Of a DNA stretch of 64,000 nucleotides, positions 33,589 through 45,599 are shown in pieces (positions within the stretch are counted from its first letter, which is position 1; every line of letters starts with the position of its first letter). The translations under genes were made by a program, and so were the position numbers. The stretch is from Cohaesibacter marisflavi (GTDB lineage: Bacteria; Pseudomonadota; Alphaproteobacteria; Rhizobiales; Cohaesibacteraceae). The notes under the pieces are model-generated. The model did no database searches. It was not told the origin of the DNA and saw nothing but the letters and a program-made list of their open reading frames with translations. The DNA lies in the NCBI RefSeq assembly GCF_900115225.1, contig NZ_FOVR01000002.1:62001-126000 (forward strand). Direction: 5' to 3'.

Positions 33589-33749
33589 GACAACGGCTCT
33601 TTCGCGGCTTTCCGCCATCTCTTTTCACAGGCTTGCTCAACGCTGTTAAAAAAATGAAATAAAAACCAAAACGCCCTTGCCAACTCGGCCAATAGGGATT
33701 AGACAACAGCCTCACTTGCCGAGCTCAAAACGAGCATGGCACACAGGTT

Positions 33750-33826
33750 GCGCTGGTAGCTCAGTTGGATAGAGCACCAGACTACGAATCTGGGGGTCGG
33801 GGGTTCGAATCCTCCCCAGCGCGCCA
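33750..33826 (+). tRNA. tRNA-Arg (anticodon ACG)
   Basis: A complete 77-base cloverleaf. Acceptor arms GCGCTGG and CCAGCGC, D-arm GCTCAGTTGGATAGAGC, anticodon stem-loop CCAGA-CTACGAA-TCTGG with ACG, T-arm GGGGGTTCGAATCCTCC, discriminator G and encoded CCA. The 3' half from the anticodon loop is duplicated at 45412-45458. It is the attachment target of the adjacent integrase and remains intact after integration. Confidence 0.97.
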
Positions 33827-33828
33827 TT
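33782..33828. repeat. attL direct repeat (47 bp, inside tRNA-Arg)
   Basis: Identical over 47 bases to 45412-45458. Similarity continues for ten more bases with one mismatch. It covers the anticodon loop through CCA and two bases beyond. Confidence 0.95.
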
Positions 33829-33869
33829 TTCCCCTTTATTATCAATGCTCTTTTCCATGGTCATTGTCC

Positions 33870-34928
33870 CTATTGGGCTTTGGTTTGCAGTTGGTTTGCA
33901 AATTCCGTTCCCTGAGCGTTCTCAAATTTGCTCATTGCTTGATCTGCAAGGGTTCGAGTTTTGGCAAGGTACTTGTCCAGTATTCCAGAAACGTGTCTGA
34001 GGCTGTGCCCTGTGATAGCTGCGATCTGGGGAGCGGTGCATCCCGCTTCTGCTAGCATCGTTACTGCTGTGCCTCTGAGGTCATGAAAGTGCAAATCTTC
34101 AATCTTTGCCGCAACCATGGCGTCTTTCCATCGATGCTGAAAATTCTTAGATTTCCAAGGTTGCCCTGATGCACTGAGAAGAACAGTGGCGGCCTCACGG
34201 GGCATATTGTCCAGCATAGCCCGCAATGCCTTTGTGCATGGTATCTCTACTAAGACGTTACCCTTGCCTTGCCGGAGGCGAATATATTGGCCGTCGTAGT
34301 TACTCCATGAGAGTTTGAGCAAATCACCTTGGCGTTGCCCCGTATGCAAAGCCAGAATCAATGCTCGCTGCAATCCTATACTCGCCTTAGACATGAAACG
34401 TTCGATATCCGAAGGAAGCCAAATCTTGTCTGCACGATCTGAGTTGTAAACCCGCTCAAAACTCTCAAGAGGATTCTTTTCAATCAGGCCTCTGTCGTAA
34501 GACCAAGATAAGACGGCTTGCAGTGTCGCCAGTCGGTTGTCTGCCTCACGAGGGGCCCGCCTAGCTGTTTCGTCTCGCCAATCCAGAAAGATGGACTTAA
34601 CCCGCCGATCTTCTAGAGCTGCGAGTGGCATTGTCCCGAACTTGTCTTCAATTTTACGCATCAAGCGGCGTCGATCTGACTTCGTGCTAGTCGCGAGGCG
34701 ATCAAACTTCAGAGAGTTGCTATATTGCCGCAAAAGGCCTGCTAGTGTATTCCGGTCTCTCTGTGTGAAGCTGGCCTCAGCTTCGGTATAAGAGGTCGCA
34801 AAAGACACGTCTCCGGGCTTGCCAGCCAAACGCCTGTTTGTCGCACGATGATAGTAATAAACACGCTTAGCACCGCTCGCCAACGTCTTAGTGACACGGT
34901 TGACACCGGGAAATGAGGCTCTAACCAT
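33870..34928 (-). CDS. int: Tyrosine recombinase (integrase) of the satellite
   Basis: A 352-residue phage integrase. Catalytic residues are visible: Arg in LHTGQRQGDLL, His and Arg in HFHDLRGTAV, His in TGHSLRHVSGIL, and the Tyr nucleophile in LDKYLAKTR. The N-terminal arm and SAM-like core-binding regions span about 1-165. ATG 34928 gives MVRASFPGVNRV, usual for rhizobial prophage integrases, and overlaps the alpA-like stop by 8 bases; an ATG at 34985 would add 19 residues. The 3' end faces tRNA-Arg. Confidence 0.95.
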   Translation of the reverse strand: MVRASFPGVNRVTKTLASGAKRVYYYHRATNRRLAGKPGDVSFATSYTEAEASFTQRDRNTLAGLLRQYSNSLKFDRLATSTKSDRRRLMRKIEDKFGTMPLAALEDRRVKSIFLDWRDETARRAPREADNRLATLQAVLSWSYDRGLIEKNPLESFERVYNSDRADKIWLPSDIERFMSKASIGLQRALILALHTGQRQGDLLKLSWSNYDGQYIRLRQGKGNVLVEIPCTKALRAMLDNMPREAATVLLSASGQPWKSKNFQHRWKDAMVAAKIEDLHFHDLRGTAVTMLAEAGCTAPQIAAITGHSLRHVSGILDKYLAKTRTLADQAMSKFENAQGTEFANQLQTKAQ

Positions 34929-35166
34929 CTCTAGCCATCCCTTGATCCAGTGCGTTTGATGTGGTGGTGTTTGTGGTGAGGCCACTTAAGCGATCCAAGG
35001 CGGCATCCAGTGCACACCTGTCCCAACGCCTGGTTTCGGGAATGGGGCCTGGTATTACAAATTTGCCCACAAGGCGAGTAAAGGCGCTGGCTGAGAGGCC
35101 GCAATATTCTGCCGCCTCTTTTTCATTCAGCCCTCTTTTGGGGATGTTCATAGGAAGAATGGTCAT
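34921..35166 (-). CDS. AlpA-like/excisionase helix-turn-helix protein
   Basis: An 81-residue protein with a MerR-like/AlpA winged helix (LNEKEAAEYCGLSASAFTRLVGK, then RRWDRCALDAALDRL). AlpA proteins activate integrase expression or act as excisionases in satellites and prophages. It lies directly upstream of int and overlaps it. The stop TAG is inside the int start region. Three bases separate it from gpW. Confidence 0.8.
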   Translation of the reverse strand: MTILPMNIPKRGLNEKEAAEYCGLSASAFTRLVGKFVIPGPIPETRRWDRCALDAALDRLSGLTTNTTTSNALDQGMARDG

Positions 35167-35169
35167 TAC

Positions 35170-35385
35170 CTAAGCCCCCTTATTGGAAATGATGCGGGCA
35201 CGTTTGAGTGTCTTGCCGCTCATGGATGAAATCTGGCGTTCGATGCGCAACAAAGCTGCGCGCATCTCACTATCGCTTTTGTATTCAGTCTTTCTTCCGT
35301 CGCTGAATTCGACGGATCTGACGCCACTTGCCTTGGCTTTTTCAAGGGCATCGCGCCAGATCATCAGCTCATTAAGGCTAGGCAT
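35170..35385 (-). CDS. gpW-like head-tail joining protein
   Basis: A 71-residue protein close in length to lambda gpW (68). An N-terminal helix (LNELMIWRDALEKAKASG) is followed by a beta hairpin (VRSVEFSDGRKTEYKS) and a C-terminal helix (MRAALLRIERQISSM), the gpW fold. gpW fills the portal exit and accepts the tail. Its ATG overlaps the capsid stop (TGATG). It is the only head-completion protein recognised; no tail genes follow. Confidence 0.75.
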   Translation of the reverse strand: MPSLNELMIWRDALEKAKASGVRSVEFSDGRKTEYKSDSEMRAALLRIERQISSMSGKTLKRARIISNKGA

Positions 35386-37178
35386 CAGGCTCCCTCGTTG
35401 AGTTGCCATCCGCGCCAGTCCATAAAGGCAGCGCCGAAATCGAGACGAACTTTAACGGCCACCCCGTCGACTTCGAAACCAACTTTGGTTTCAGTTTGCG
35501 GACCGGGTTCACCTTCAAGATAGGCATATTCAAGCCCGTCGATCACGCCATTTCCCGCCGCTACATACCAACGGTCGGCATTAGAAAATCTGCCCTCAAC
35601 AACCATTTCAAGATTGGAAAATGGGTTTGCATTGTCTGTCGAAGTTGGAGTGATGGCTGTCAACAGCATCTCTGTGGTAGTTTCGAGGTCGGCCGGTACA
35701 ACAACATATTTGGGACTGAGATTGAGCCTCTTGCCAGACATGCTTGTTTGATGGCGTAGCGCCTTTCTCATTGCTGAGAGTGTGTCTGAGGTTGGGGCAG
35801 CTCCAGTCGCTGCAAGGTTGTTGTGATCGGCATGAAATAGAGTTTTCCCGTCTGCCATATTCGGTCCGAGTCCATCGTTCTGATCAAGCAGATCGACGAA
35901 GAACTCAGCTTCAAAATCAGCAGCTGCAATGCCCATTTTACGGGGAACATCCTGCAGTGCACCCAGATCATCATTAATCATCATCTGGCGTGAAAAACGC
36001 ATCATTCGTCCGAAAGTGTCGACTTTGATGCTTTCGCCTGCTTCGAGCATGTAGTCATCTTGATACTCACCGTTTTCTGCTACGAGTTTCAGATCAGGTG
36101 CTTCAGACATGGTGATGGCTTGGCGAGTGCGAAAATCCTTCACGGTAATTTGTCGAGCCAATCTTTTGAGTGCGCTTGGAGCACTTTCATATGACTGGCG
36201 AAGGACGCGTCCAACGGTGTCCCCCATGATCAATGGATAGTCGCTGGTGCTGAGCGCACGGGTCACAAGCGTTGATGCCGACATGCCCATCGTGTTGACA
36301 TTGGAATTGCGTAGGCAATCGCGGGCGATCTCCGGGATAGTCAGGCCAACAAATTCGCGGGCGCTTTCCTCAGGGGTATGAGACGGGTCTATCCGGACTA
36401 TCAACGCGTCGGTCATGCGCTGGGCACGAGCAATCGGATCAGTGTGGTCGGTGATAATTCGGGCTGTCTGTGTCCGGATCAGTGGTGTGGCCCTCTTCTC
36501 GGCCTCAGCGATTGCTGCAGCCCGGACTTCATTCAGTTCGCAGTCGGAGTCGATCTGGGAATTGGCCCATTCATCGCCGAGCTTCAGGGTGGTGGCCATG
36601 GCGCGGATTTGCTGATTGCGCAAAGCCATTTCGTTGGCCTTGGGTTCAGTTGTGGAGAGTGCCTCCGGTTTATTTGGCATGCTTCGAATCCTTGCATCAG
36701 TGTCAGCCGGTACGCTTACGAAGCTCACTTCCTTGGGGGTAAACTGTGTGATGGTCCGAATAAGCCGGCCAGTGTCCTGGGCGCGCTTGTCTGTCCATTT
36801 CATTGGCTGATAGCCAATCGAGACGCCAGTGATCAAACCGTCGCGAATGTCTGCGATTACGGGATCTGCCCGGCTGTCGGATGTGAATTTGATAGTAACA
36901 ATAATGGCTGTGCCTTCTCGTTTGGCATTTGTCACCGCGCCAAGGACAGCTTGAAGGCTATCTTGGCGGTGACTGTCCAGAACGGGGCAACCGATGAAGG
37001 CTTCCGGATTGGTGGCCTGCGGGTCGAGCCTTTCGATAAAGGCTCCCCGGTCGACATCCCCGAAGGCTGTTGCAACGGCAACAACTGTGCGGTCTTCTTC
37101 ACTTAGCGTTCGAGAGCCAATAGAGAAATCTCTCGTTTCTATGGTACCAAGCTGGTGATGGTCGACTGGGGAATTCAT
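35385..37178 (-). CDS. Prohead protease-major capsid protein fusion
   Basis: A 597-residue fusion. Residues about 15-170 form an HK97-type prohead protease with catalytic His in VLDSHRQDS and Ser in LITGVSIGYQP, followed by KEVSFVSVPAD. A charged helical linker (about 175-260) may act as scaffold. Residues about 270-597 form a major capsid domain (SEAPDLKLVAENGEYQDDYM, MMRFSRQMMINDDLGAL, FHADHNNLA). The fused gene implies the satellite builds its own shell. The start overlaps the portal stop by 4 bases. Confidence 0.88.
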   Translation of the reverse strand: MNSPVDHHQLGTIETRDFSIGSRTLSEEDRTVVAVATAFGDVDRGAFIERLDPQATNPEAFIGCPVLDSHRQDSLQAVLGAVTNAKREGTAIIVTIKFTSDSRADPVIADIRDGLITGVSIGYQPMKWTDKRAQDTGRLIRTITQFTPKEVSFVSVPADTDARIRSMPNKPEALSTTEPKANEMALRNQQIRAMATTLKLGDEWANSQIDSDCELNEVRAAAIAEAEKRATPLIRTQTARIITDHTDPIARAQRMTDALIVRIDPSHTPEESAREFVGLTIPEIARDCLRNSNVNTMGMSASTLVTRALSTSDYPLIMGDTVGRVLRQSYESAPSALKRLARQITVKDFRTRQAITMSEAPDLKLVAENGEYQDDYMLEAGESIKVDTFGRMMRFSRQMMINDDLGALQDVPRKMGIAAADFEAEFFVDLLDQNDGLGPNMADGKTLFHADHNNLAATGAAPTSDTLSAMRKALRHQTSMSGKRLNLSPKYVVVPADLETTTEMLLTAITPTSTDNANPFSNLEMVVEGRFSNADRWYVAAGNGVIDGLEYAYLEGEPGPQTETKVGFEVDGVAVKVRLDFGAAFMDWRGWQLNEGA

Positions 37179-38596
37179 GCTGCATCCTCCGTTTTGGGAG
37201 CGGGGTTGGTACCGGCTGACAGTGGGTTGGTAAGACCCCGCTCCCTCTCGCTATCGCGCTTGCGTTCCGCGTCGATCTCTTCGACGGAGAAGCCACGTTG
37301 CGCGACAACTCGGCTACGACTTGTCAGCCCGTTTTCGATTTCAAGGATTGCTGCCTTGGCATCACTTTCAGGATCTACCCACGGCCATGCTGGCGGTAGA
37401 TACTCGGCTTTATGAAAGGCCTCTGGCTCTGCTGAATAGGCGGATAGATCGATTGTGCCTTCAAGCGCCCAGAGGGCAACAAGGCGTTCATAGATTGGTT
37501 GCAGGCATTGTTTAACCAGAACTGTGTGCTGGATGCTTTCAATTCTGCGGCGAAATTCCAGAAGGGCTGCGCGGCTGGAAGAATAAGTTGAGTTTGAATA
37601 GTCGCCAGTCAGCTGCTCATATGTGAGGCCAAGCCCTGCCGCCATGGCTCGCAATTGCCACTGAATAAAAGAGGGAAAATCACTGACATCTGGCATGTTG
37701 GGAAATTCAATGTCAGATCCTGCTGGCAGGAAATGCACCGCCCCCGGCTCAATGCCGCTTTCAAAGATGCCGTCCTTTTGTTCTCCTTCCAGAGGATTGG
37801 ACGTTCCGTCGACGTCGCGAATAAATCCGGCAAAGAGAGCGGCGACCTGTTGTCTTTTGAGCTGCGCGTCTTCATAGCTATCCAGCGTTTGGGCTCGCAA
37901 GAGCACAGACGTGAACCACGAAAGACCGCGCACTTGTCCCGGCTCAATCGAAACAAAGACATGAAGCATATCTTCTGCAGGAATGCGAACATGTCCTAAA
38001 TTCTGTAAGATAGATGTTCCGCGTCGTCGCGGGAGTACATGGTAGGCGATGCGCTGGCCATATTCGTCAAACTCGATCCCCGCTGTGATATAGCGATTCT
38101 CACCCAACTCGCGGTTAAGCGAGGCGTCAACCATATCGGCAGGGATAGTCTTGAGGCTGAGCTTCGTGCCTTGCTGAATGAGCTGCACAAAGGCCTCACC
38201 CTTGATCACCAATTCTCGGGTGATCTGGGTTTGAAGGCCATAGAAATCATGGCGTTCCTCAATGTCGCAAGTTTCAAGCCACCGCTCCAGTTCGTTTTGA
38301 AGCTGCTCGCGAATGCTATCTGTTTCACATTTGGAGCGCGTTACAATGCCTGATCCGATCAGGTTGGAAACAAGGCTTTCGACTGCCTTGGCGAGCCATG
38401 GATTGTTGACCACTCCGCCGATTGTGCGGCTTTGGATGGTTCTTGACCCTGCATGTGCAGCCTCGGAAAGATTGCTGATGCTGCTGACGCCCTGCCAACG
38501 TGGGCCATATCCTGCAGCTTCAATCTTGCCGCCAAACATGCGATAAAGCCAATCACCAGCGCTTTGCGCTACGGACTTCTTTGCTTGTCTACTCAT
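37175..38596 (-). CDS. Phage portal protein, lambda GpB family
   Basis: A 473-residue portal protein forming the dodecameric DNA gate. It has RTIQSRTIGGVVNNPWLAKAVESLVSN near residue 50, HVLPRRRGTSI, IPAEDMLHVFVSIEPGQVRGLSWF and YEQLTGDYSNSTYSSSRAALLEFRR, all typical of the Phage_portal_2 family. The start ATG overlaps the stop of the upstream MerR-like gene, and its stop overlaps the capsid start. Length is normal, so it looks functional. Confidence 0.92.
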   Translation of the reverse strand: MSRQAKKSVAQSAGDWLYRMFGGKIEAAGYGPRWQGVSSISNLSEAAHAGSRTIQSRTIGGVVNNPWLAKAVESLVSNLIGSGIVTRSKCETDSIREQLQNELERWLETCDIEERHDFYGLQTQITRELVIKGEAFVQLIQQGTKLSLKTIPADMVDASLNRELGENRYITAGIEFDEYGQRIAYHVLPRRRGTSILQNLGHVRIPAEDMLHVFVSIEPGQVRGLSWFTSVLLRAQTLDSYEDAQLKRQQVAALFAGFIRDVDGTSNPLEGEQKDGIFESGIEPGAVHFLPAGSDIEFPNMPDVSDFPSFIQWQLRAMAAGLGLTYEQLTGDYSNSTYSSSRAALLEFRRRIESIQHTVLVKQCLQPIYERLVALWALEGTIDLSAYSAEPEAFHKAEYLPPAWPWVDPESDAKAAILEIENGLTSRSRVVAQRGFSVEEIDAERKRDSERERGLTNPLSAGTNPAPKTEDAA

Positions 38597-39075
38597 TCGT
38601 TGGCTTCCTTTATAACGGCAGTATTCGTCGCATTCCAGAAGCTTCGGAATTCGTTTTTGACCGAACTTGGTAGCCGCTGGACTAGACCTTCAAGACTGAA
38701 CAAGAATCCCCCGATATCGGACTTCTCCATCATCTCATTTGGTTGTTCCAATAGAGCGTGGCTGAATTGATTGCCTTTCGGGTAAAGCAGCATGAAGCGG
38801 TTTGGCTGGTCTGGCTGGCGTACAAGTGAGTGAAGATACATTTTGAAGTTGAGTTCATGATCAAAAATGGTCTTCAGCTCTAATCCCATTTCTATGAGAA
38901 TGGGAACTGAACTCAGAAATAGCACCTCTCCGATGCTATAATTCCAACGTCCTCGATTGTCTTGTTGTCCAATGCCATCCAGCAGACCACGCCTGCGCCA
39001 GTCGCGCAAATTATCAACGCTCAGCGAGTTTTCGACCAACTTAACGACTTTAGAAGGGCTGAAGGCATCTGACAT
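38593..39075 (-). CDS. MerR-like DNA-binding protein heading the capsid operon
   Basis: A 160-residue protein. The N-terminal 60 residues resemble a MerR-type winged helix (VDNLRDWRRRGLLDGI, then GRWNYSIGEVLFLSSVPILIEMGLEL). The rest is a mixed domain with no recognised match. GGAG 9 bases upstream supports the ATG at 39075. It overlaps portal, so it is translated with the head genes. Paired 15-bp inverted sites directly upstream suggest it autoregulates the capsid operon, an inference from position. It could be the satellite's control switch. Confidence 0.65.
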   Translation of the reverse strand: MSDAFSPSKVVKLVENSLSVDNLRDWRRRGLLDGIGQQDNRGRWNYSIGEVLFLSSVPILIEMGLELKTIFDHELNFKMYLHSLVRQPDQPNRFMLLYPKGNQFSHALLEQPNEMMEKSDIGGFLFSLEGLVQRLPSSVKNEFRSFWNATNTAVIKEANE

Positions 39076-39086
39076 CTTTTAATCTC

Positions 39087-39128
39087 CGTGAGAATATCTC
39101 ACAATAATATGTGTGAGATATTCTCACA
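39087..39128. promoter_or_regulatory. Paired palindromic operators upstream of the capsid operon
   Basis: GTGAGAATATCTCAC (39088-39102) and GTGAGATATTCTCAC (39113-39127) are exact reverse complements, each with GTGAGA/TCTCAC arms, spaced 25 bases centre to centre. They begin 13 bases before the MerR-like start and probably cover its promoter. Confidence 0.7.
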
Positions 39129-39147
39129 TGTCAAGTCTTTTCATGGT

Positions 39148-39672
39148 TTAGTTACTTCTTGGAGGAACCTTTTTTCGTAAGTCGGCCCATTGCAACACCC
39201 CTAAGGTGTTTATTATCCGGTAAATCCCAAATTCATCAGGCATACATCTACAGCCTTTAAAGACGAATTGTTCACCGCTTACAGGTTCTTCGAGGACAGC
39301 ATAGTCAGCATGGCAATCGATAAGGATTCCGCAATACTCAGTTTCTTCTCGATCACCCGTTTTTGCATCTTCGGTTATCACCGAGACTAATGCGAGTTCG
39401 CCAATCTTCCTTTTGAATAATGAGAAGAAATAGGTTTCATGCCTCTGATATTTGGGCTCGAAGTTATCGGCCAATAAAGTACGAGAGTTAGGATGAGAAT
39501 TTATCTCGGCTAAATATAAAAAATACTCCATTTGCTCTTTTGAAAAATTGTCTTCGTTTACATCTGACAAAGCTAGAGGTTGATGATCCATTTTAGTCTC
39601 TAAAGTATGAGGATTAGCTTTGTAATTCATAGCGGTCGCAGCGAGCAAAGTGGGGTTGACGTGCATGTTCAT
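39148..39672 (-). CDS. Hypothetical protein of the satellite
   Basis: A 174-residue protein not recognised. The N-terminal 60 residues are polar; the C-terminal part is mixed alpha/beta with FFSLFKRKIGELALVSVITE and a Cys-Arg-Cys (CRC) near residue 143. GGAG 7 bases before ATG 39672 supports the start. It diverges from the XRE repressor, whose operator overlaps the shared promoter region, so it is likely an early repressor-controlled gene. Transcription could continue to the MerR-like and head genes. Confidence 0.7.
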   Translation of the reverse strand: MNMHVNPTLLAATAMNYKANPHTLETKMDHQPLALSDVNEDNFSKEQMEYFLYLAEINSHPNSRTLLADNFEPKYQRHETYFFSLFKRKIGELALVSVITEDAKTGDREETEYCGILIDCHADYAVLEEPVSGEQFVFKGCRCMPDEFGIYRIINTLGVLQWADLRKKVPPRSN

Positions 39673-39697
39673 TGGTGTGCTCCAATTATTGCAAAAT

Positions 39698-39761
39698 GTA
39701 GCGGAATCGCTACTATGTAATCATAATAAGGAAAATCACAACGTCAAGGCGAAATCGCTAC
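39698..39761. promoter_or_regulatory. Repressor operators between the divergent control genes
   Basis: O1 at 39698-39713 is GTAGCG-GAAT-CGCTAC. A partial copy, GCGAAATCGCTAC (39749-39761), abuts the XRE start codon. The arrangement suits a small repressor acting on both divergent transcripts. Confidence 0.6.
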
Positions 39762-39995
39762 ATGGAAGCGAAAATTACATCTGAACAATGCAAAATGGCG
39801 AGGGCAGGGCTTGGACTCGGCGTTCGTGAACTGGCTGAGCTTGCGAAAGTGTCAACAAATACAGTTACGCGATTTGAGCGAGGTGAAGAATTGAAGCCGA
39901 GAACAATCGACGCATTGCAATCAGCGCTAGAATCGGCTGGAGTAGAATTCATTCCAGAAAATGGCGGTGGTGCCGGAGTGAGAATGAAGAGGTAG
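39762..39995 (+). CDS. Small XRE-family repressor
   Basis: A 77-residue single-domain helix-turn-helix protein (CKMARAGLGLGVRELAELAKVSTNTVTRFERG). Such proteins are common as lysogeny-type repressors. The start codon abuts an operator half-site, so autorepression is likely. The downstream membrane-protein gene begins 4 bases after the stop. These two are the only plus-strand genes in the element, as expected for genes expressed in the integrated state. Confidence 0.88.
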   Translation: MEAKITSEQCKMARAGLGLGVRELAELAKVSTNTVTRFERGEELKPRTIDALQSALESAGVEFIPENGGGAGVRMKR

Positions 39996-39999
39996 TTTG

Positions 40000-40662
40000 A
40001 TGGAGTGGCTAACCCAGCTTCCTGAGTTTACTAAGGATCCCACTTTTCAAGGCACAGTCATGGTTGGCTTGCTTTCAATTTTATTAAGTGTCGTCAAAGG
40101 GTACCGAGATCGGAAAGGGCGCATCGCATGGGGGGTATCTCACGGGCACACTTACGCATTTCCCAATACAACTCCAGCAGAAGAGAATGTGGAGGTTGAT
40201 GGTCATGATGAAATTGAAGAAGACTCTGATGTATCAGATTCAAGGGAGATAGATCGGAAGGAGATAGAGAACCAAAGTGTGATAGTCAGAACTATCGAAA
40301 TTTGGGTTCAAAACATCGGTGGGGCAACAGCAAGTGACGCTGAAGTGATATTAAATTATCGGCCTCAGCACTTCGATATTTGGCCTCCTTTGCAATATAA
40401 AGAGCTCGTAAATTCAGATGGACGCTTTGTTGTCATTGTGAAGAAATTGCACAAAAGACAACATTTCACTCTATCGATGCTTGTTGTTGGAGGGGAAATT
40501 CCACATGTTGTTGGCGTCTCGTGGAACCAAGGATTGGGAAAAGAAGTTCGTATAGGGCCTCAACAGCTGTTCAGTCCGTGGGTTGGACGTGTGTTCGCTT
40601 CTTTGATGTTTATTGGAATTTCGTCAGTTCTGTATTTTTCTGTAAGCTTGATATTTGGATAG
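40000..40662 (+). CDS. Two-helix membrane protein, probable satellite cargo
   Basis: A 220-residue protein not recognised. An N-terminal membrane helix (about 17-34, VMVGLLSILLSVV) and a C-terminal helix (about 195-218, VFASLMFIGISSVLYFSVSLIFG) flank a soluble middle. That middle has an acidic stretch (about 65-90) and a beta-rich Ig-like region (IEIWVQNIGGATASDAEVIL). It shares a transcript with the XRE repressor, so it is probably made while the element is dormant. Superinfection exclusion or phage defence is a hypothesis from position. ATG 40000 has GAGG upstream. Confidence 0.65.
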   Translation: MEWLTQLPEFTKDPTFQGTVMVGLLSILLSVVKGYRDRKGRIAWGVSHGHTYAFPNTTPAEENVEVDGHDEIEEDSDVSDSREIDRKEIENQSVIVRTIEIWVQNIGGATASDAEVILNYRPQHFDIWPPLQYKELVNSDGRFVVIVKKLHKRQHFTLSMLVVGGEIPHVVGVSWNQGLGKEVRIGPQQLFSPWVGRVFASLMFIGISSVLYFSVSLIFG

Positions 40663-40670
40663 TAAAAGTT

Positions 40671-42527
40671 TTACCTTGCCATCCATTTTGACCGGACAAC
40701 CTTGCGATTGTCTGCTACACACATTTGTTTTTCCATCGTTTCTGACTTGATCGGTTTTTCTGCCAACATATCAGCTAACTCGTTGAGCCGGATGCCCGTT
40801 GTGGCGACACCGTGCAAGGCCGCATAGGCATAGACACGGCAATCTAGCGGCTCGTTTCTGACCCCGGAAACTGGCACCCATTTAATTCTGGCCACGCCAT
40901 TCTTGTAGACCTTAATCGGCTTTTCTGCGGTAATGCCACGATAATAATCCAAATCGCGCTCCTGAGGAAAATGGCAGTAGCCGGGACCGGGTTCTTCAAT
41001 CCGGAGGCGTGAGAGGAATGTGTGCTTGATTGCATCAACCCCGATAATGAATAAGGGAGCACTGCCCTTTTTCGGTTTTGGTGGTCGCTTTGGCCAAGCA
41101 GGAATGCCAGGTCCGCCTCGTCCCTTGATAGCCCAGATCCTTCTATTTTGACGCTGGCGGCAGAATGACATTACGTTGGGCGTCCTGTGGCCGCCGCTGT
41201 CGATTGAAGCGGCATAGATGGATAGGTCGGAAACATCCCTTGGATGCGGGTAGGTTTTGGCGAGTAGTCGTTCCAGTTCCTTCCAGACATCGGGTTTTGA
41301 AGGGTCTCCCCAAAGGACATGATACCCGAGTGACCAGCTTTCCTCATCCTTACCCCAGCCGACAATCTCCATTTCAAGCCGGTCGTCTTGGGTGTCAATC
41401 CCGGCTGTGATAAGTGCGACACCATCAGGAAGGATAGGCCCAGCTTGTTCCGACCTGTTGAGCAGGCGTTGAGCTTCAATCGGGGCAAGATCCCGATCTT
41501 CGAAGGCTTCACCCAAGCGCGTGTTGATAAAGGTTTGGAGACGGGGTGGATCATTTTTGACAGTGACAAATTCGCGCGCCATCTCACCCCAACTTTCAAA
41601 TGGGGAATAGAGGCCGGGGAGCCAAAAGCCTGCCGTACGTCCATCGCCATGGCCGGTGGAACGCCATTCGCCCAAGGCAAGCATTTTGTGCTTTTGAGCC
41701 TCATGGATAGCGTGACCGCAATGTTCGCATTCAAGGTACGCGTCTTCAGGGAATCCGCTGGGCCATTTGATGCGTTTCCAAGCTATGGTTTGGAAGCCGC
41801 CACATTCAAGGCAGGGGACAAAGTATTTTCGCTGGTCGCTTTCGTTATATGCCTTCTCGATGCGGGACACTCCGGCGACTGTGGGAGTAGAGCAGAGATA
41901 AATCTTTCTTCGCCCTTTATAGGTTGCTGTTCTTCGAATGGCGAGTTCTACAGGGTCGCCTTCACCACTGGCGTCTACGGGATATCCGTCCACCTCATCA
42001 AGGAAGATATAGCGTACAGGGGTAGAACGGAGGCCGGTTGGTGAATTGGCTCCGGCCATGACCAGTTCTCCACCAATGAAGCTTTTCAGGTCAATGGTAT
42101 TGCCCTTCTCTCGCGCCTTCGGCGGAGCCACCTTGTCCTTGAGGGCCGGAGTTGACGCGATCAAAGGATCTATACGAGTGCGACTATTGCGCTTGAGCAT
42201 GTCCAGCGATGGCATAACGAGAAGCATGATACCTGGTGCGTGATCGATGACATAACCAATCCAGTTCAATCCAGCCTCGGTTTTGCCGATCTGTGCGCCA
42301 GCCATGAAGACCACACGTTCAACGCTGGAAGCAGTAGAAAGGCAGTTCATGATTTCTTGCAAGTATGGAACCCGATTTGTTCTCCAGCGCCCCGGCTCGG
42401 CACTCGTTGAAGGGAGTTGGCGATACTTGTCAGCCCATTCGCTGACAGTTAGCTGTCGCTCTGGGGCGAGCCCTTCGCGCCAGATTTCATCAGCCCAGAT
42501 CATTGTCAGTTCTGCAAGATCAGTCAT
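40671..42527 (-). CDS. Terminase large subunit, GpA family
   Basis: A 618-residue packaging motor. The ATPase has Walker A (AGAQIGKTE, about residue 77) and Walker B (YIFLDEVDGYP, about 172). A zinc-binding CLECGG/CEHCGH pair lies near 240-275. The C-terminal nuclease domain has ITAGIDTQDDRLEMEIVGW and an SGVRNEPLD segment. It belongs to the lambda GpA family, which often cuts at cos sites. The start overlaps TerS by 8 bases. Confidence 0.95.
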   Translation of the reverse strand: MTDLAELTMIWADEIWREGLAPERQLTVSEWADKYRQLPSTSAEPGRWRTNRVPYLQEIMNCLSTASSVERVVFMAGAQIGKTEAGLNWIGYVIDHAPGIMLLVMPSLDMLKRNSRTRIDPLIASTPALKDKVAPPKAREKGNTIDLKSFIGGELVMAGANSPTGLRSTPVRYIFLDEVDGYPVDASGEGDPVELAIRRTATYKGRRKIYLCSTPTVAGVSRIEKAYNESDQRKYFVPCLECGGFQTIAWKRIKWPSGFPEDAYLECEHCGHAIHEAQKHKMLALGEWRSTGHGDGRTAGFWLPGLYSPFESWGEMAREFVTVKNDPPRLQTFINTRLGEAFEDRDLAPIEAQRLLNRSEQAGPILPDGVALITAGIDTQDDRLEMEIVGWGKDEESWSLGYHVLWGDPSKPDVWKELERLLAKTYPHPRDVSDLSIYAASIDSGGHRTPNVMSFCRQRQNRRIWAIKGRGGPGIPAWPKRPPKPKKGSAPLFIIGVDAIKHTFLSRLRIEEPGPGYCHFPQERDLDYYRGITAEKPIKVYKNGVARIKWVPVSGVRNEPLDCRVYAYAALHGVATTGIRLNELADMLAEKPIKSETMEKQMCVADNRKVVRSKWMAR

Positions 42528-43059
42528 CGGCTAGCTCCTTCAGGGGCAGTTCTGCAAGGTCTGCAAGGTGATCGCGGACAAGCTTGTCCATTAGCGCAAA
42601 GGCATCTTTGGGGTCTGCTTCCAGCTCGCTGGCAAGTGCCACACTGGCCCGACTTGCCCAACCGATCCATGCATCACGTTCCGCTCTGGCTCGTGAGAAA
42701 ATGGCTTGTTTTGCGGCCATCCGGTCAATCAAGTTGCCTTTCTCTCGTTCGAGGTCCAGCTTGGCTCGTTCCACTCTGACTGCATCAAGCTCAGCACGGG
42801 CGCTTGTTGGGATGTTTTCAGTCAGAGCTTTGCGACGATTTGGGGAGCAATGCGCGGAATACCATGTCTTGCCTGCTTCGGAATCGATCATGCCATTGGG
42901 TTCGACGGGCAATCCGTCCTTTATCAACTGACTGACGCGACCTTTGGAAATTCCTAGAAACTCGGCGAACTTCGTCTTTGCCATCAACCGTTTTTCTTTG
43001 GCTGATAGAGGCAAAAGTAACGAATTTTGATCCTCGCTTGAGCTATGCGTAGACTGCAT
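42520..43059 (-). CDS. Terminase small subunit, Nu1-like
   Basis: A 179-residue protein. A Nu1-type winged helix (AKTKFAEFLGISKGRVSQLIKDGLPV) lies at about 26-55, followed by a long charged helix (about 85-125) for oligomerisation and a C-terminal acidic tail that could contact TerL. It selects DNA for packaging, so its sequence specificity would decide satellite rather than helper DNA. ATG 43059 has GGA upstream; an internal ATG at 42984 is possible. Confidence 0.82.
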   Translation of the reverse strand: MQSTHSSSEDQNSLLLPLSAKEKRLMAKTKFAEFLGISKGRVSQLIKDGLPVEPNGMIDSEAGKTWYSAHCSPNRRKALTENIPTSARAELDAVRVERAKLDLEREKGNLIDRMAAKQAIFSRARAERDAWIGWASRASVALASELEADPKDAFALMDKLVRDHLADLAELPLKELADD

Positions 43060-43187
43060 GAACGTTCCGTTTTACCTCGCTAAACCTCACTAAAGTTTAG
43101 ATAAATTCCCAAGTTCAGTGTAAATAACCTTGGGGCCCAGCCCACCCGTATTGCTCTGATGCCGCAAGGACCCGAGCCGTTGGGATC

Positions 43188-43268
43188 GGACACCGGACAC
43201 CCCTTTAGGGGGGGTGTCCGGTGTCCGTCCCCTGCGGGACATTAAGGGACATGTCCCTGCGGGACATC
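43188..43268. repeat. Repeat-rich gap between primase and TerS: candidate origin or packaging site
   Basis: GGACACCGGACACCCC (43188-43203) and its exact reverse complement (43211-43226) form a 16-bp inverted repeat with a 7-base spacer. Two near-copies of GTCCCTGCGGGACAT and a central AAGGGACAT follow up to the primase stop. No T-run is present. Iteron-like repeats beside a primase suggest an origin; proximity to TerS allows a cos or pac site. Confidence 0.6.
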
Positions 43269-45171
43269 ATTGTCTCGTATTCCATACATAAGGTTCACAT
43301 ATGCCGATAAGCCCTTTTTCTTGAAGCGTGCGGCAGGCTCGTTGGAAGGCTTTCTTCTTCGCTTCATCGCTGCCTGTTGGACTGATACCAAGCAAATAGG
43401 CTCGTGCTCTCCAAGCCTCTATAGAAACCACTCTGACATTCTCAGGAATAATCTTGCCGCCCGGAGAAGACTGCCCATCGTCGACCAATGCATCGTTCAA
43501 TGCGCGTCGGGCAATTTCTGCAGCTCCAGACAGCCGAGGTCTATCCCCTCTTTCTCCCTCACTGTTACCCGTGGGCTCAACAATGCATGAGGTAATTTCA
43601 TCCCCATCTTCATCAAGACCAAGAGCAACCTGTGAGAGTTTGAAGCGGAAGGTTGTTCCGTCCTCGCCATCTTTCTGCTTATCGATGGTGGCTTTGCAGA
43701 TGTCGCTATCACCTGCCTTCTCCAACTCGATTACTGTGTCAGAGCAGTCTCGAAGGGTAGTTGCTCCCCTCATGCCGCGATCCCTATCCTTGCCGGTGTG
43801 GTGGACTATCAAAACATGTGCATTTGTCTTCTCCCTGAGTTTTTCAACTTGGACTATAAAGCTTGCCATATCGCGCGGATCTGCGTCAGTTCCGCCCGCC
43901 ATCATGCGAGATAAAGTATCGATGATAATCAGTGAAACAGGCGAGCCCGCCCTCCGACCTATCTCCTTTATGTCCGCGGCAAGTGAGGATATATCCGAGC
44001 TATCTGGCGACCTCATATCAACCGCTTTGGGGATCATGACGAAGGGAATCGGTGTATCTATCGATTGATGCTCTCGCCATGCTTTGAGGCGTTGCCTTGC
44101 ACCGGTGCCCCCCTCTCCTGCGACGTAGACAACAGGCCCGGATAAAACCTTGTTTTCGAACCAAGGAAGGCCAGCGGCTATCCTGAGGCCCAGATCAATA
44201 GCCAAGAAGCTTTTTCCAACACCTGATGGGCCGTAGATGACTGACATTTCTCCTGTCGCCAGCACTTTCTTTACGAGCCAACTTCTTGGAGGAAGGTTGT
44301 CCTCTTCTCCGTACCAGATCATAGGGAAATGGGTTGGCGTTGGGGCAGGTTCCCAATCCCGGGCGACTTCAGAAAGCCGGTAGAATTCTTCGATAGTTCT
44401 TCCACCCTCAAGCCAATCAGAGACATCCCCTTTTTTGGGAAGGTTTGGAAGATCTAGTACACGGATGCGCCGCGCAATACCGTCTAGGCTTCTGGCAACT
44501 ATATCCCGATGCTCGCGGCCTGCATCATCATTGTCAGGAATGATGAAGACATCAGCTTGCAAGAAATGTGAATTAACGCTTTCTGGCCACTTCTTTGCGC
44601 CACCTGGATTGCATGTCGCTACTATTCCAAGCTGCTCCAAGCGCTCAACATCCTTTTCGCCTTCAACAATATAGATCGGTTGCTCTTGGGCAATGGCTTC
44701 CAAGAGCTCTGGCAATCTATATGGCGCAAGGCGAGTGCCTTTGACCTTCCATTCCCAGTCGCTATCCTTTTGGGGGTGCTTAACTCCCGGCTTTGGGCGC
44801 CGTTGTCGAAAATCCTTCGGGTCCATGCGGACGACTTGAAAAAGAAGACAGCCTTCTTCATCCACATAGTCGTAGGCTGCGACAATATTGGAACGATTTT
44901 GGTGTTGACGAAATCCAGATCCAAATCTTAAGTCAATCCAGATGCCTGCGTCTTCCTTTGAGCAACCGCGTTTTTCCATCACTAGATCAATAACGCCGCC
45001 GCCTTCATTTGTTTCGTGATTAAAAAAAGTTCCCTTTTCTTCTCCCGTGGTCTTAACGCTTAGACTTCCACGGTTCCCAAAGCGCAGCTCCCCGTTTTTA
45101 GACAAGTGCTTGTTTGGCTCACCACACAGTTCGCGAGATATCGGATCAATCAAGTCACGAATGTCCATCAT
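43267..45171 (-). CDS. Primase-ATPase (TOPRIM plus RepA-like AAA domain)
   Basis: A 634-residue replication protein. The N-terminal region (about 1-125) resembles a degenerate primase zinc-binding/fold region. A TOPRIM domain follows (IYIVEGEKDVERL, FIIPDNDDAGREH, about 165-235). A RecA-like ATPase has Walker A GPSGVGKSFL (about 315) and LIIIDTLSRM, then VLIVHHTGKDRDRGMRGAT (about 410-475). The C-terminus may be a winged helix. Primase-helicase proteins of this kind drive satellite replication. GAGG 7 bases upstream of ATG 45171 supports the start. Confidence 0.92.
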   Translation of the reverse strand: MMDIRDLIDPISRELCGEPNKHLSKNGELRFGNRGSLSVKTTGEEKGTFFNHETNEGGGVIDLVMEKRGCSKEDAGIWIDLRFGSGFRQHQNRSNIVAAYDYVDEEGCLLFQVVRMDPKDFRQRRPKPGVKHPQKDSDWEWKVKGTRLAPYRLPELLEAIAQEQPIYIVEGEKDVERLEQLGIVATCNPGGAKKWPESVNSHFLQADVFIIPDNDDAGREHRDIVARSLDGIARRIRVLDLPNLPKKGDVSDWLEGGRTIEEFYRLSEVARDWEPAPTPTHFPMIWYGEEDNLPPRSWLVKKVLATGEMSVIYGPSGVGKSFLAIDLGLRIAAGLPWFENKVLSGPVVYVAGEGGTGARQRLKAWREHQSIDTPIPFVMIPKAVDMRSPDSSDISSLAADIKEIGRRAGSPVSLIIIDTLSRMMAGGTDADPRDMASFIVQVEKLREKTNAHVLIVHHTGKDRDRGMRGATTLRDCSDTVIELEKAGDSDICKATIDKQKDGEDGTTFRFKLSQVALGLDEDGDEITSCIVEPTGNSEGERGDRPRLSGAAEIARRALNDALVDDGQSSPGGKIIPENVRVVSIEAWRARAYLLGISPTGSDEAKKKAFQRACRTLQEKGLIGICEPYVWNTRQ

Positions 45172-45173
45172 CG

Positions 45174-45413
45174 CTATGCCTCTATTTGGCGAGCAATGAC
45201 ATTCAGGCGCTCGAATGCATCGTGCTTGGCTTCTAGAATGGTCTCAGGGGTTTGGGCTCGGTCAAATCCAATTCGTCGAATATCGCGGGCTACTTCGCGA
45301 ATTTGCCCTGCAATTTGGTTTGCAGACCGCCTACTAAGTGATTGATCTTTGGTCGGATAATTTGAAGAAGTTTGAGGTGAACTGTTTGACTTTCCAAAGC
45401 TTTGGATGTGCCT
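45174..45413 (-). pseudogene. Open frame without a start codon, completed only by circularisation
   Basis: On the minus strand an open frame of 79 codons from the attachment repeat ends 2 bases before the primase ATG (TAGCGATG), and the primase ribosome site GAGG lies inside it. The C-terminal half is amphipathic and coding-like (RRSANQIAGQIREVARDIRR, then ILEAKHDAFERLNVIARQIE). No ATG, GTG or TTG occurs in frame up to and through the repeat. Joining the element's left end supplies an ATG in frame (33858). It may be a remnant, or a gene active only in the circle. Confidence 0.5.
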
Positions 45414-45458
45414 ACGAATCTGGGGGTCGGGGGTTCGAATCCTCCCCAGCGCGCCATT
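45412..45458. repeat. attR direct repeat (47 bp copy of the tRNA-Arg 3' half)
   Basis: Perfect copy of 33782-33828, marking the right end of the element. It lacks the 5' half of a tRNA and is not a functional tRNA gene. Confidence 0.95.
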
Positions 45459-45573
45459 CTCCCCTTTACATCAGTATCTTATCGCTTAGGCAGCATGCTG
45501 CATATGTGTGTTCGTATGGTCTTTTGGCTGTGCCTGCAGTATACCCCCTCATGCATTGGCAAAATGCTTTGCC

Positions 45574-45599
45574 AAAAAAAAGGCCCCGTTTCCGGGGCC
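45574..45599 (-). terminator. Intrinsic terminator of the second TRAP operon
   Basis: On the minus strand GGCCCCG-GAAA-CGGGGCC is followed by TTTTTTT, about 45 bases after the dctM stop. Confidence 0.9.

Follow-up and report, generated by a model that had tools for sequence, protein, structure and literature searches.

A putative gene spanning the attP site of a capsid-encoding phage satellite of Cohaesibacter marisflavi and its possible role in tying replication and packaging to excision

Integration-dependent immunity of mycobacteriophage BPs was reportedly described by Broussard et al. in 2013. In this phage the attachment site attP lies inside the repressor gene and integration shortens the product made in the prophage (PMC4557955). 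In Tn916 the joined att ends are needed for certain transcripts (Celli and Trieu-Cuot 1998, cited in PMC6540685), ICEKp1 switches its int promoters by state, as is similarly described for ICEclc (PMC13023037), and integration partitions the gene of the suicidal SSV1-type archaeal integrases at an internal att site (PMC8371274). In SGI1, translation of the small upstream open reading frame (ORF) S004 is needed for translation of repA (PMC7826253), and a helper gene interrupted by an embedded phage-inducible chromosomal island (PICI) is expressed only after the satellite excises (PMC10111431). Capsid-forming PICIs (cf-PICIs) are small satellites with their own capsids, of about 14 kb on average, with listed hosts mainly in Enterobacteriaceae and groups of Firmicutes (PMC10803314). 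Here, an integrated phage satellite of Cohaesibacter marisflavi is analysed, which occupies positions 33782-45458 of a 64,000-nucleotide stretch of contig NZ_FOVR01000002.1 (the window) and in which the start and the body of a small gene probably lie at opposite ends of the element, to be joined across attP in the excised circle. A literature search in PMC found, among the listed titles and abstract openings, no report of an attP-spanning gene leading a satellite primase operon.

The integrated element is bounded by two copies of a 47-bp att core, spaced 11.6 kb apart, which covers the 3' part of a tRNA-Arg(ACG) gene (ARAGORN; exact-repeat comparison). The features of the two ends are as follows.

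33712-33864, minus strand: 5' half of the spanning frame in the integrated state, 50 codons from the ATG at 33864 or 48 from the ATG at 33858, entering host DNA
33750-33826, plus strand: tRNA-Arg (anticodon ACG), the integration target (ARAGORN)
33782-33828, no strand: att core, left copy (attL side), 47 bp (exact repeat)
33867-33871, minus strand: AGGGA, a Shine-Dalgarno (SD)-like site overlapping the int stop, 8 nt upstream of the ATG at 33858 (sequence; duplex energy)
45174-45411, minus strand: 3' half of the spanning frame, with no in-frame ATG, GTG or TTG from core to stop
45177-45311, minus strand: conserved 45-residue domain of the small protein, a predicted two-helix hairpin (matches of its own hidden Markov model in relatives; AlphaFold2)
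45412-45458, no strand: att core, right copy (attR side), 47 bp (exact repeat)

When the ends are joined as attP, a minus-strand frame is open for 106 codons from the ATG at 33864 and for 104 from the ATG at 33858, located 5 and 11 nt behind the stop of the integrase gene (int), and it closes with a TAG at 45176-45174, 2 nt ahead of the primase ATG at 45171. The sequence-only reading of this DNA had proposed a 104-codon frame created by circularisation, and its coordinates and codon counts were reproduced on the joined ends. It had also stated that the left part ends after 48 codons in the host flank when integrated, that the frame at 45174-45411 has no start of its own, and that in the circle int, this frame, the primase and the small and large terminase subunits (TerS and TerL) form one series on one strand; the stop at 33712, the absence of start codons and the gene order bear these statements out. 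On the right side, ATG, GTG and TTG are absent from the upstream stop in the host flank down to the conserved domain. The window alone exceeds chance only weakly, as shuffled spacers yield such a frame 1.5% of the time and 17-19% when the conserved domain is taken as given. The earlier caution that the frame might be a chance one keeps weight for the window by itself, and recurrence among relatives is the stronger argument; since the chance per element is 0.16-0.40 in the set described below, the case rests on this recurrence. The spanning frame is probably not a chance frame and, judging from its sequence, is probably a real gene in the circle.

The right half of the frame is conserved coding sequence, as judged from its homologues, which precede the primase or the first right-arm gene in L060/L023 (Pseudovibrio), L066, L067, L062, L188, L231, L293, L315 and others. 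Between L067 and L188 the domain has 4, 3 and 18 changes at codon positions 1, 2 and 3, respectively, and the linker from core to domain has 13, 8 and 17 along with two compensating three-codon indels, which indicates that the linker is weakly constrained yet its frame is kept. AlphaFold2 predicts a two-helix hairpin for the domain core (54 residues, 9 sequences) with a predicted local distance difference test score (pLDDT) of 94.8. The small protein matched no family in Pfam, NCBIfam or PHROG when 2 sequences were searched at first and 5 in each of two later searches.

The small-gene family provides the cleanest set of relatives, comprising those attP-testable elements that carry the domain and have no ATG of their own for it within the element, namely the window's element, L066, L067, L289, L188, L231 and L315. 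In 7/7 of them, representing about five lineages, the domain shares its frame across attP with a start on the int side. With the domain kept, the chance of this is 0.17 (window), 0.40 (L066), 0.22 (L067), 0.23 (L289), 0.16 (L188), 0.28 (L231) and 0.20 (L315), and the product of these nulls is about 8e-4 when L067 stands for the three kin L067, L289 and L188. The distance from core to domain is 106 nt in the window's element, L066 and L315, 103 nt in L067, L289 and L188, and 139 nt in L231, all seven values being equal modulo 3. The right end of L315, open across another tRNA-like core, was seen before its int end was fetched; there an ATGA overlaps the int stop and 108 codons are in frame across attP. 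The expectation for L315 was not written down in advance, and the order of the steps alone shows that the right end came first. An eighth small gene without Met (L062/L045) lies on a contig from which int is absent.

The first set of relatives comprised elements found via the primase and having both att ends; it shaped the hypothesis and is no test of it. Nine elements including the window's were examined, of which five had their repeat accepted at once (window, L060, L065, L066, L067) and L063, whose 16-bp repeat begins 7 nt past the stop of int, was accepted later; L062, L064 and L068 were without a repeat. The next 10 elements contributed only L077, 14-bp repeats in L069, L070 and L082 being judged chance, and the next 9 only L096, L095 being the same element cut short. 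Left out were L061, which repeats L060, L085-L087, which fell outside the attP analysis, and L090, which was extended and had no repeat. A primase scan of genome contigs gave only 3 loci, a primase search of a phage collection gave 821 records, all below 60% identity and 1 covering 80% of the query, and a second portal scan of viral contigs gave 2 loci, both already in the sample. The relatives differ in their att cores, the integrases compared are 23-50% identical to the window's, and the named hosts include Pseudovibrio and Bradyrhizobium.

In all 8 elements of this set (window, L060, L063, L065, L066, L067, L077, L096) a frame spans the core and extends into the start of the gene that follows. 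It opens close to the int stop, at most 11 nt before it or 29 nt behind it, except in L060, where it opens 67 nt behind. The spanning frame is the small gene in the window's element, L066 and L067. In L063 and L077 it is 45 or 53 codons long and meets the primase start in ATGA or TGATG, and in L096 it has 62 codons and overlaps the primase start by 8 nt. In L060, whose small gene has a well-marked ATG of its own, the spanning frame has 51 codons and overlaps that ATG as ATGA; in L065 it has 44 codons and ends in TGATG on another gene. With spacers shuffled, the nulls of this set range from 0.015 to 0.47 per element.

Two hold-out sets were assembled. The first contained capsid satellites found by their portal in IMG/VR plus G320, with the core at most 100 nt from int; 79 loci were examined and 15 had a repeat, L198, L214, L233 and L244 were excluded for their distance from int, and L229 and L235 (repeat 298 and 488 nt from int) were set aside from the remaining 11, so that 9 were counted. 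The automatic criterion was passed by 6/9 (L188, L200, L208, L219, L231, L246), L200 being doubtful by eye; L064x fits by eye and fails the automatic criterion, its next frame being short. The second set started from portal matches in 297 genomes of the order, 48 of which matched; 30 regions with the stronger matches were fetched, 12 had int and a repeat, and with L302 dropped as the L231 element 11 were counted, five of which passed (L289, L290, L292, L301, L312) a criterion coded at first use, without an earlier written record. Of the hold-out elements, L188 and L289 are closely related to L067. In L295 and L296 a frame crosses attP without coupling. Large genes span attP from int in L292 (390 codons, primase-like by eye), L301 (444) and L312 (345-350), and these three have internal in-frame starts. 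The frame across attP in L296, of 202 codons and with its ATG on the int side, is HNH/AP2 endonuclease-like by eye. The integrated L229 element carries, about 300 nt behind int, a 21-bp copy of the start region of its right-arm gene, possibly a scar of recombination at attP.

The junctions are often tight on both sides. The start overlaps the int stop as GTGA in L066, L231 and L301 and as ATGA in L315 and L219, and overlaps or abuts it as TAATG in L188, TGATG in L290, TAAATG in L063, TAAGTG in L064x and TAATTG in L077. The end of the frame overlaps the start of the next gene in L066, L067, L063, L077, L188, L208, L246, L231, L301, L312 and L315. In L206, an 11.5-kb metagenome contig with a 127-bp terminal repeat that is apparently a satellite of this family captured as a circle, a 107-codon frame with a TTG start comes after int and meets the next gene in GTGA, with the att core not identified; L234 is alike, with ATGA instead.

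The coupling criterion counts a start near the stop whenever its frame has 45 codons or more; it was discarded as a control, because mismatched arms pass it too. It was replaced by a frame test, which asks whether the longest frame left open beyond the core can be reached in phase from an int-side start. This test was applied to those hold-outs, without the kin of L067, in which a frame is open over at least 220 nt. In this sample 9/11 were linked, the doubtful L200 included, against 45% of mismatched arms (P 0.009), and other thresholds and sets gave P 0.001-0.03. SD-like pairing placed 9/20 candidate starts in the top 10% of background, where 2 are expected. The arrangement recurs in the satellite family without being universal, and the anatomy of the element, the open frame, the conservation of the domain and the recurrence are established.

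Several observations weigh against the frame being an excision-dependent gene. The frame over the core runs antisense to the tRNA, a pattern typical of spurious frames; the window's SD-like site is modest, 18% of background sites being equally strong by duplex energy; RNA structure at the window's primase start is not significant (z -0.99); and the chances per element in the small-gene set are not small. The coupling criterion was passed by mismatched arms in 56/56 cases of the first set and in 40/72 and 37/110 of the hold-outs, and over both hold-outs true pairs reached 11/20 against 160/380 (42%) for mismatched ones (P 0.06). The frame test was chosen after this outcome and is therefore not fully independent, and the SD figure is inflated since the 20 starts were taken only from elements judged positive. 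Within the small-gene set, every kind of start is missing only in the window's element and L066; the other five have an in-frame TTG or GTG within the element, and L315 also an ATG in the host flank. Two attP-testable relatives, L060 (Pseudovibrio) and L293, carry an in-frame stop and a domain with its own ATG, and a Met lies upstream of the domain in the trimmed records L177, L186 and L201 and in the weaker matches L226, L234 and L239. In the first hold-out L207 and L251 have no spanning frame reaching the next gene; in the second five of 11 passed, and L293, L298, L300 and L303 fail; in the last three no frame spanning attP extends to a following gene. Where int precedes other genes on their own strand (7 contigs), a frame at the int stop overlaps the next start only in L206 and L234; L244, with int, an L246-like core and then a gene with its own ATG, is a counterexample, and L232, L250, L123 and L125, read directly, have no coupled frame behind int. 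The sequence-only reading had suggested comparing homologous elements for the frame across attP, with stops or frameshifts there, or an own start of the small gene, as refuting it. The arrangement recurs in many relatives, such refuting features occur in L060 and L293, and L207, L251, L298, L300 and L303 lack a spanning frame that extends to a following gene. The excision-dependent gene of that reading gains from the conserved coding of the right part and from the relatives in frame and is weakened by those relatives with their own start.

The frame could be an unselected by-product, open through the tRNA remnant by chance and either untranslated or translated without relevance, in a circle so densely coding that attP must fall in or beside a gene. 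Per-element nulls mostly of 0.1-0.5, closed or unconnected frames (L207, L251, L293, L298, L300, L303), own starts (L060, L293) and a permissive coupling test that fails to separate true from mismatched arms all fit this account, which is nevertheless rather unlikely in view of a conserved domain lacking any start in the window's element and L066, the seven linked elements out of seven with L315 seen from its right end first, the frame permutation, and the surplus of SD-like sites and many start-stop overlaps. A stronger contender, though short of an even chance, is a switch acting on transcription only, similar to that of Tn916, in which the int transcript crosses attP into the primase genes and the frame is incidental. 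It is favoured by the Tn916 precedent (PMC6540685), by genes running one way from a promoter-like site divergent from the regulator, by a terminator-like site outside attR and by the lack, in the window scan, of a promoter-like site just before the primase, and it could also serve elements without a spanning frame (L300, L303); the missing start of a conserved gene in the window's element and L066 and the matching of frames are left unexplained by it.

It is improbable that the small gene is translated also in the integrated state from an unusual start (ATT in the window, TTG or GTG elsewhere), which would make attP irrelevant: in L067, L289 and L188 an in-frame TTG does precede the domain by 21 nt, GTG or TTG occurs in L231 and L315 and an own ATG in L060 and L293, but ATG, GTG and TTG are all missing in the window's element and L066, and inspection by eye showed no SD-like site a short way upstream of the in-frame ATT of the window. 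Less probable still is that the window holds a decayed gene that has lost its start, its open frame being a remnant. Decay does occur in the same genus, G011 having a primase with 6 stops and a frameshifted small gene, but the window-element genes scanned apart from the small gene have long open frames, the domain still follows the pattern of its family and has a confidently predicted fold, and L066, equally startless, is provided on its int side with a strong SD and a GTGA start. These judgements overlap, since a spanning gene and a transcriptional relay may coexist. The frame being kept across attP suggests that translation, and not only transcription, is carried across, and we incline, by a modest measure, to a spanning gene within a circle operon that integration opens, which would tie replication and packaging to excision.

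The remaining features of the element and its flank are listed below; all identified genes lie on the minus strand except the helix-turn-helix (HTH) regulator and the 221-residue gene behind it.

33870-34985, minus strand: tyrosine integrase (int), 371 residues (PF00589, E 6e-20; phrog_1 integrase)
34921-35166, minus strand: excisionase, which we take to be AlpA-like (phrog_66, E 4e-5)
35170-35409, minus strand: head-tail adaptor (phrog_2545, E 2e-14)
35385-37178, minus strand: prohead protease-major capsid fusion (PF04586, PF25209)
37175-38596, minus strand: portal protein (PF05136, E 1e-88)
38593-39075, minus strand: ORF with a weak MerR-like match below cut-off, no assigned function
39106-39134, minus strand: second promoter-like site outside coding sequence, likewise near the regulator
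39148-39672, minus strand: ORF with no assigned function
39720-39747, minus strand: promoter-like site divergent from the regulator, the proposed operon start (consensus match only)
39762-39995, plus strand: HTH (XRE-like) regulator (PF13560, E 4.6e-6)
39997-40662, plus strand: cargo gene behind the regulator, 221 residues, without family match
40671-42527, minus strand: TerL, GpA type, the end of the proposed circle operon (PF05876, PF20454)
42520-43059, minus strand: TerS (phrog_57, E 4e-25)
43267-45171, minus strand: primase/helicase-like protein (AAA_25), 634 residues, the first gene after the small gene (PF13481, E 1.5e-41; phrog_239 DNA primase/helicase)
45582-45599, minus strand: terminator-like site of 7 G-C pairs and 8 T, immediately beyond attR in the host flank

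By its gene set, this element is a capsid-encoding phage satellite. Besides their capsids, cf-PICIs carry int, an AlpA-like gene, a primase and a terminase, and are not known to have tail or lysis genes; a helper phage induces them and supplies the tails. No tail or lysis gene was found among the 10 proteins of the window's element that were scanned, the two ORFs and the cargo gene being without assigned function. The position behind the regulator is a cargo slot, holding a different gene in each of the elements compared (39997-40662 in the window, 14531-15787 in L023, 7054-7929 in L066, 9403-10206 in L067, 10003-10665 in L063); none of these cargo genes matched a Pfam family above its cut-off, and comparison of their proteins with PADLOC gave only a weak ZorA-like match in L023 (E 0.009).

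The likeness of the att copies extends beyond the 47 exact bases: in 33829-33838 and 45459-45468 one mismatch is followed on either side by TCCCCTTTA, which makes the true shared att stretch longer than 47 bp. The 12-bp direct repeat CTGCAAACCAAA (minus strand) occurs near both element ends (33879-33890 and 45314-45325) and a further stretch resembling it lies beside the int stop; its copies, one of them inside the small gene, are candidate arm-type integrase sites. In G011, of the same genus, the decayed primase and small gene (L013/L068) lie beside another tRNA-like 3' end, with about 5 tandem copies of the 11-bp repeat CCGCAGTATGT, iteron-like, just upstream. G383 appears to hold two elements of this satellite family (L315/L316 and L062), with related small genes on different contigs.

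Scans for promoter-like sites are weak evidence, 4 being present in the region against 10.6 in shuffles. A similar opposite-strand HTH gene lies 4.4-6.1 kb behind the primase start in 7/8 elements (by eye; L065 is ambiguous). The RNA structure z-score at the primase start is 0.47 in L066, -0.94 in L023 and -1.83 in L063. Given the promoter-like sites on the regulator side and the order of the genes, one circle operon is possible, which integration would open between int and primase. We infer its transcription, translation, coupling and regulatory benefit as follows. The circle would form a single unidirectional operon that is read from a regulated promoter near the XRE-like gene through the structural genes, the AlpA-like gene, int, the attP-spanning small gene, primase, TerS and TerL, the att core (the tRNA 3' end) lying within the 5' third of the small gene. 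Translation would begin just behind the int stop, from the ATG and its SD-like site, pass through the core in frame and yield a product of about 104 residues with a C-terminal helical hairpin; ribosomes would then stop at the primase start and re-initiate there. Integration would split both gene and operon, leaving the start by int and the domain with the replication and packaging genes 11.6 kb away; the integrated right side would have neither a small-gene start nor a promoter-like site before it, and the terminator-like site upstream would shield the primase side from host read-through. Production of the small protein, primase and terminase would thereby be tied to excision, and the benefit may be that no replication takes place within the chromosome.

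If this model is true, the very act of site-specific recombination makes both a gene and an operon whole, and the satellite gains a fail-safe against replicating inside the chromosome. Such first genes would then be missed or mis-called in integrated copies, and provirus trimming at int and primase would remove the small gene. More tentatively, and with the odds rather against it, a whole class of capsid-encoding satellites may keep the start of its first replication-side gene across attP, with start-stop overlaps that license translation of primase and terminase and an arrangement kept through swaps of integrase and tRNA site. The gene would then be present in the circle only, and excision would serve as an on-switch at the reading-frame level.

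Compared with the described systems, the locus resembles BPs in that attP lies within a frame beside int, so that integration changes the protein that can be made. BPs loses the 3' end of its repressor, whereas here the 5' end with the start is cut off and the gene would be off when integrated; the split gene moreover encodes no recognisable repressor, having no HTH or family match, and an HTH regulator lies elsewhere (39762-39995). As in Tn916, where genes for the next stage of transfer are transcribed only once the ends are joined, gene order and strand here fit such a relay; the transcripts were demonstrated for Tn916, whereas here a frame with its start codon across attP, in front of a satellite primase and terminase, is proposed from the sequence. 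Joined ends that supply a new upstream signal in the circle are shared with ICEKp1 and ICEclc, where the signal is a promoter for int itself and no coding frame is involved. The SSV1-type integrases likewise have att within a gene, but there int itself is split and here it is whole. SGI1, a helper-dependent island, also drives translation of a replication gene from a small upstream ORF; the excerpted account does not place its leader across attP, and it has a stem-loop, of which no significant counterpart was found at the window's primase start. In helper-embedded PICIs the interrupted gene belongs to the helper prophage, unlike the satellite's own gene here. In gene content the locus resembles the cf-PICIs, since the window's element has its own capsid, portal, terminase, int and primase on 11.6 kb; it differs in that the named hosts of this family include Pseudovibrio and Bradyrhizobium and in its putative attP-spanning gene, which the excerpted account of cf-PICIs does not mention.

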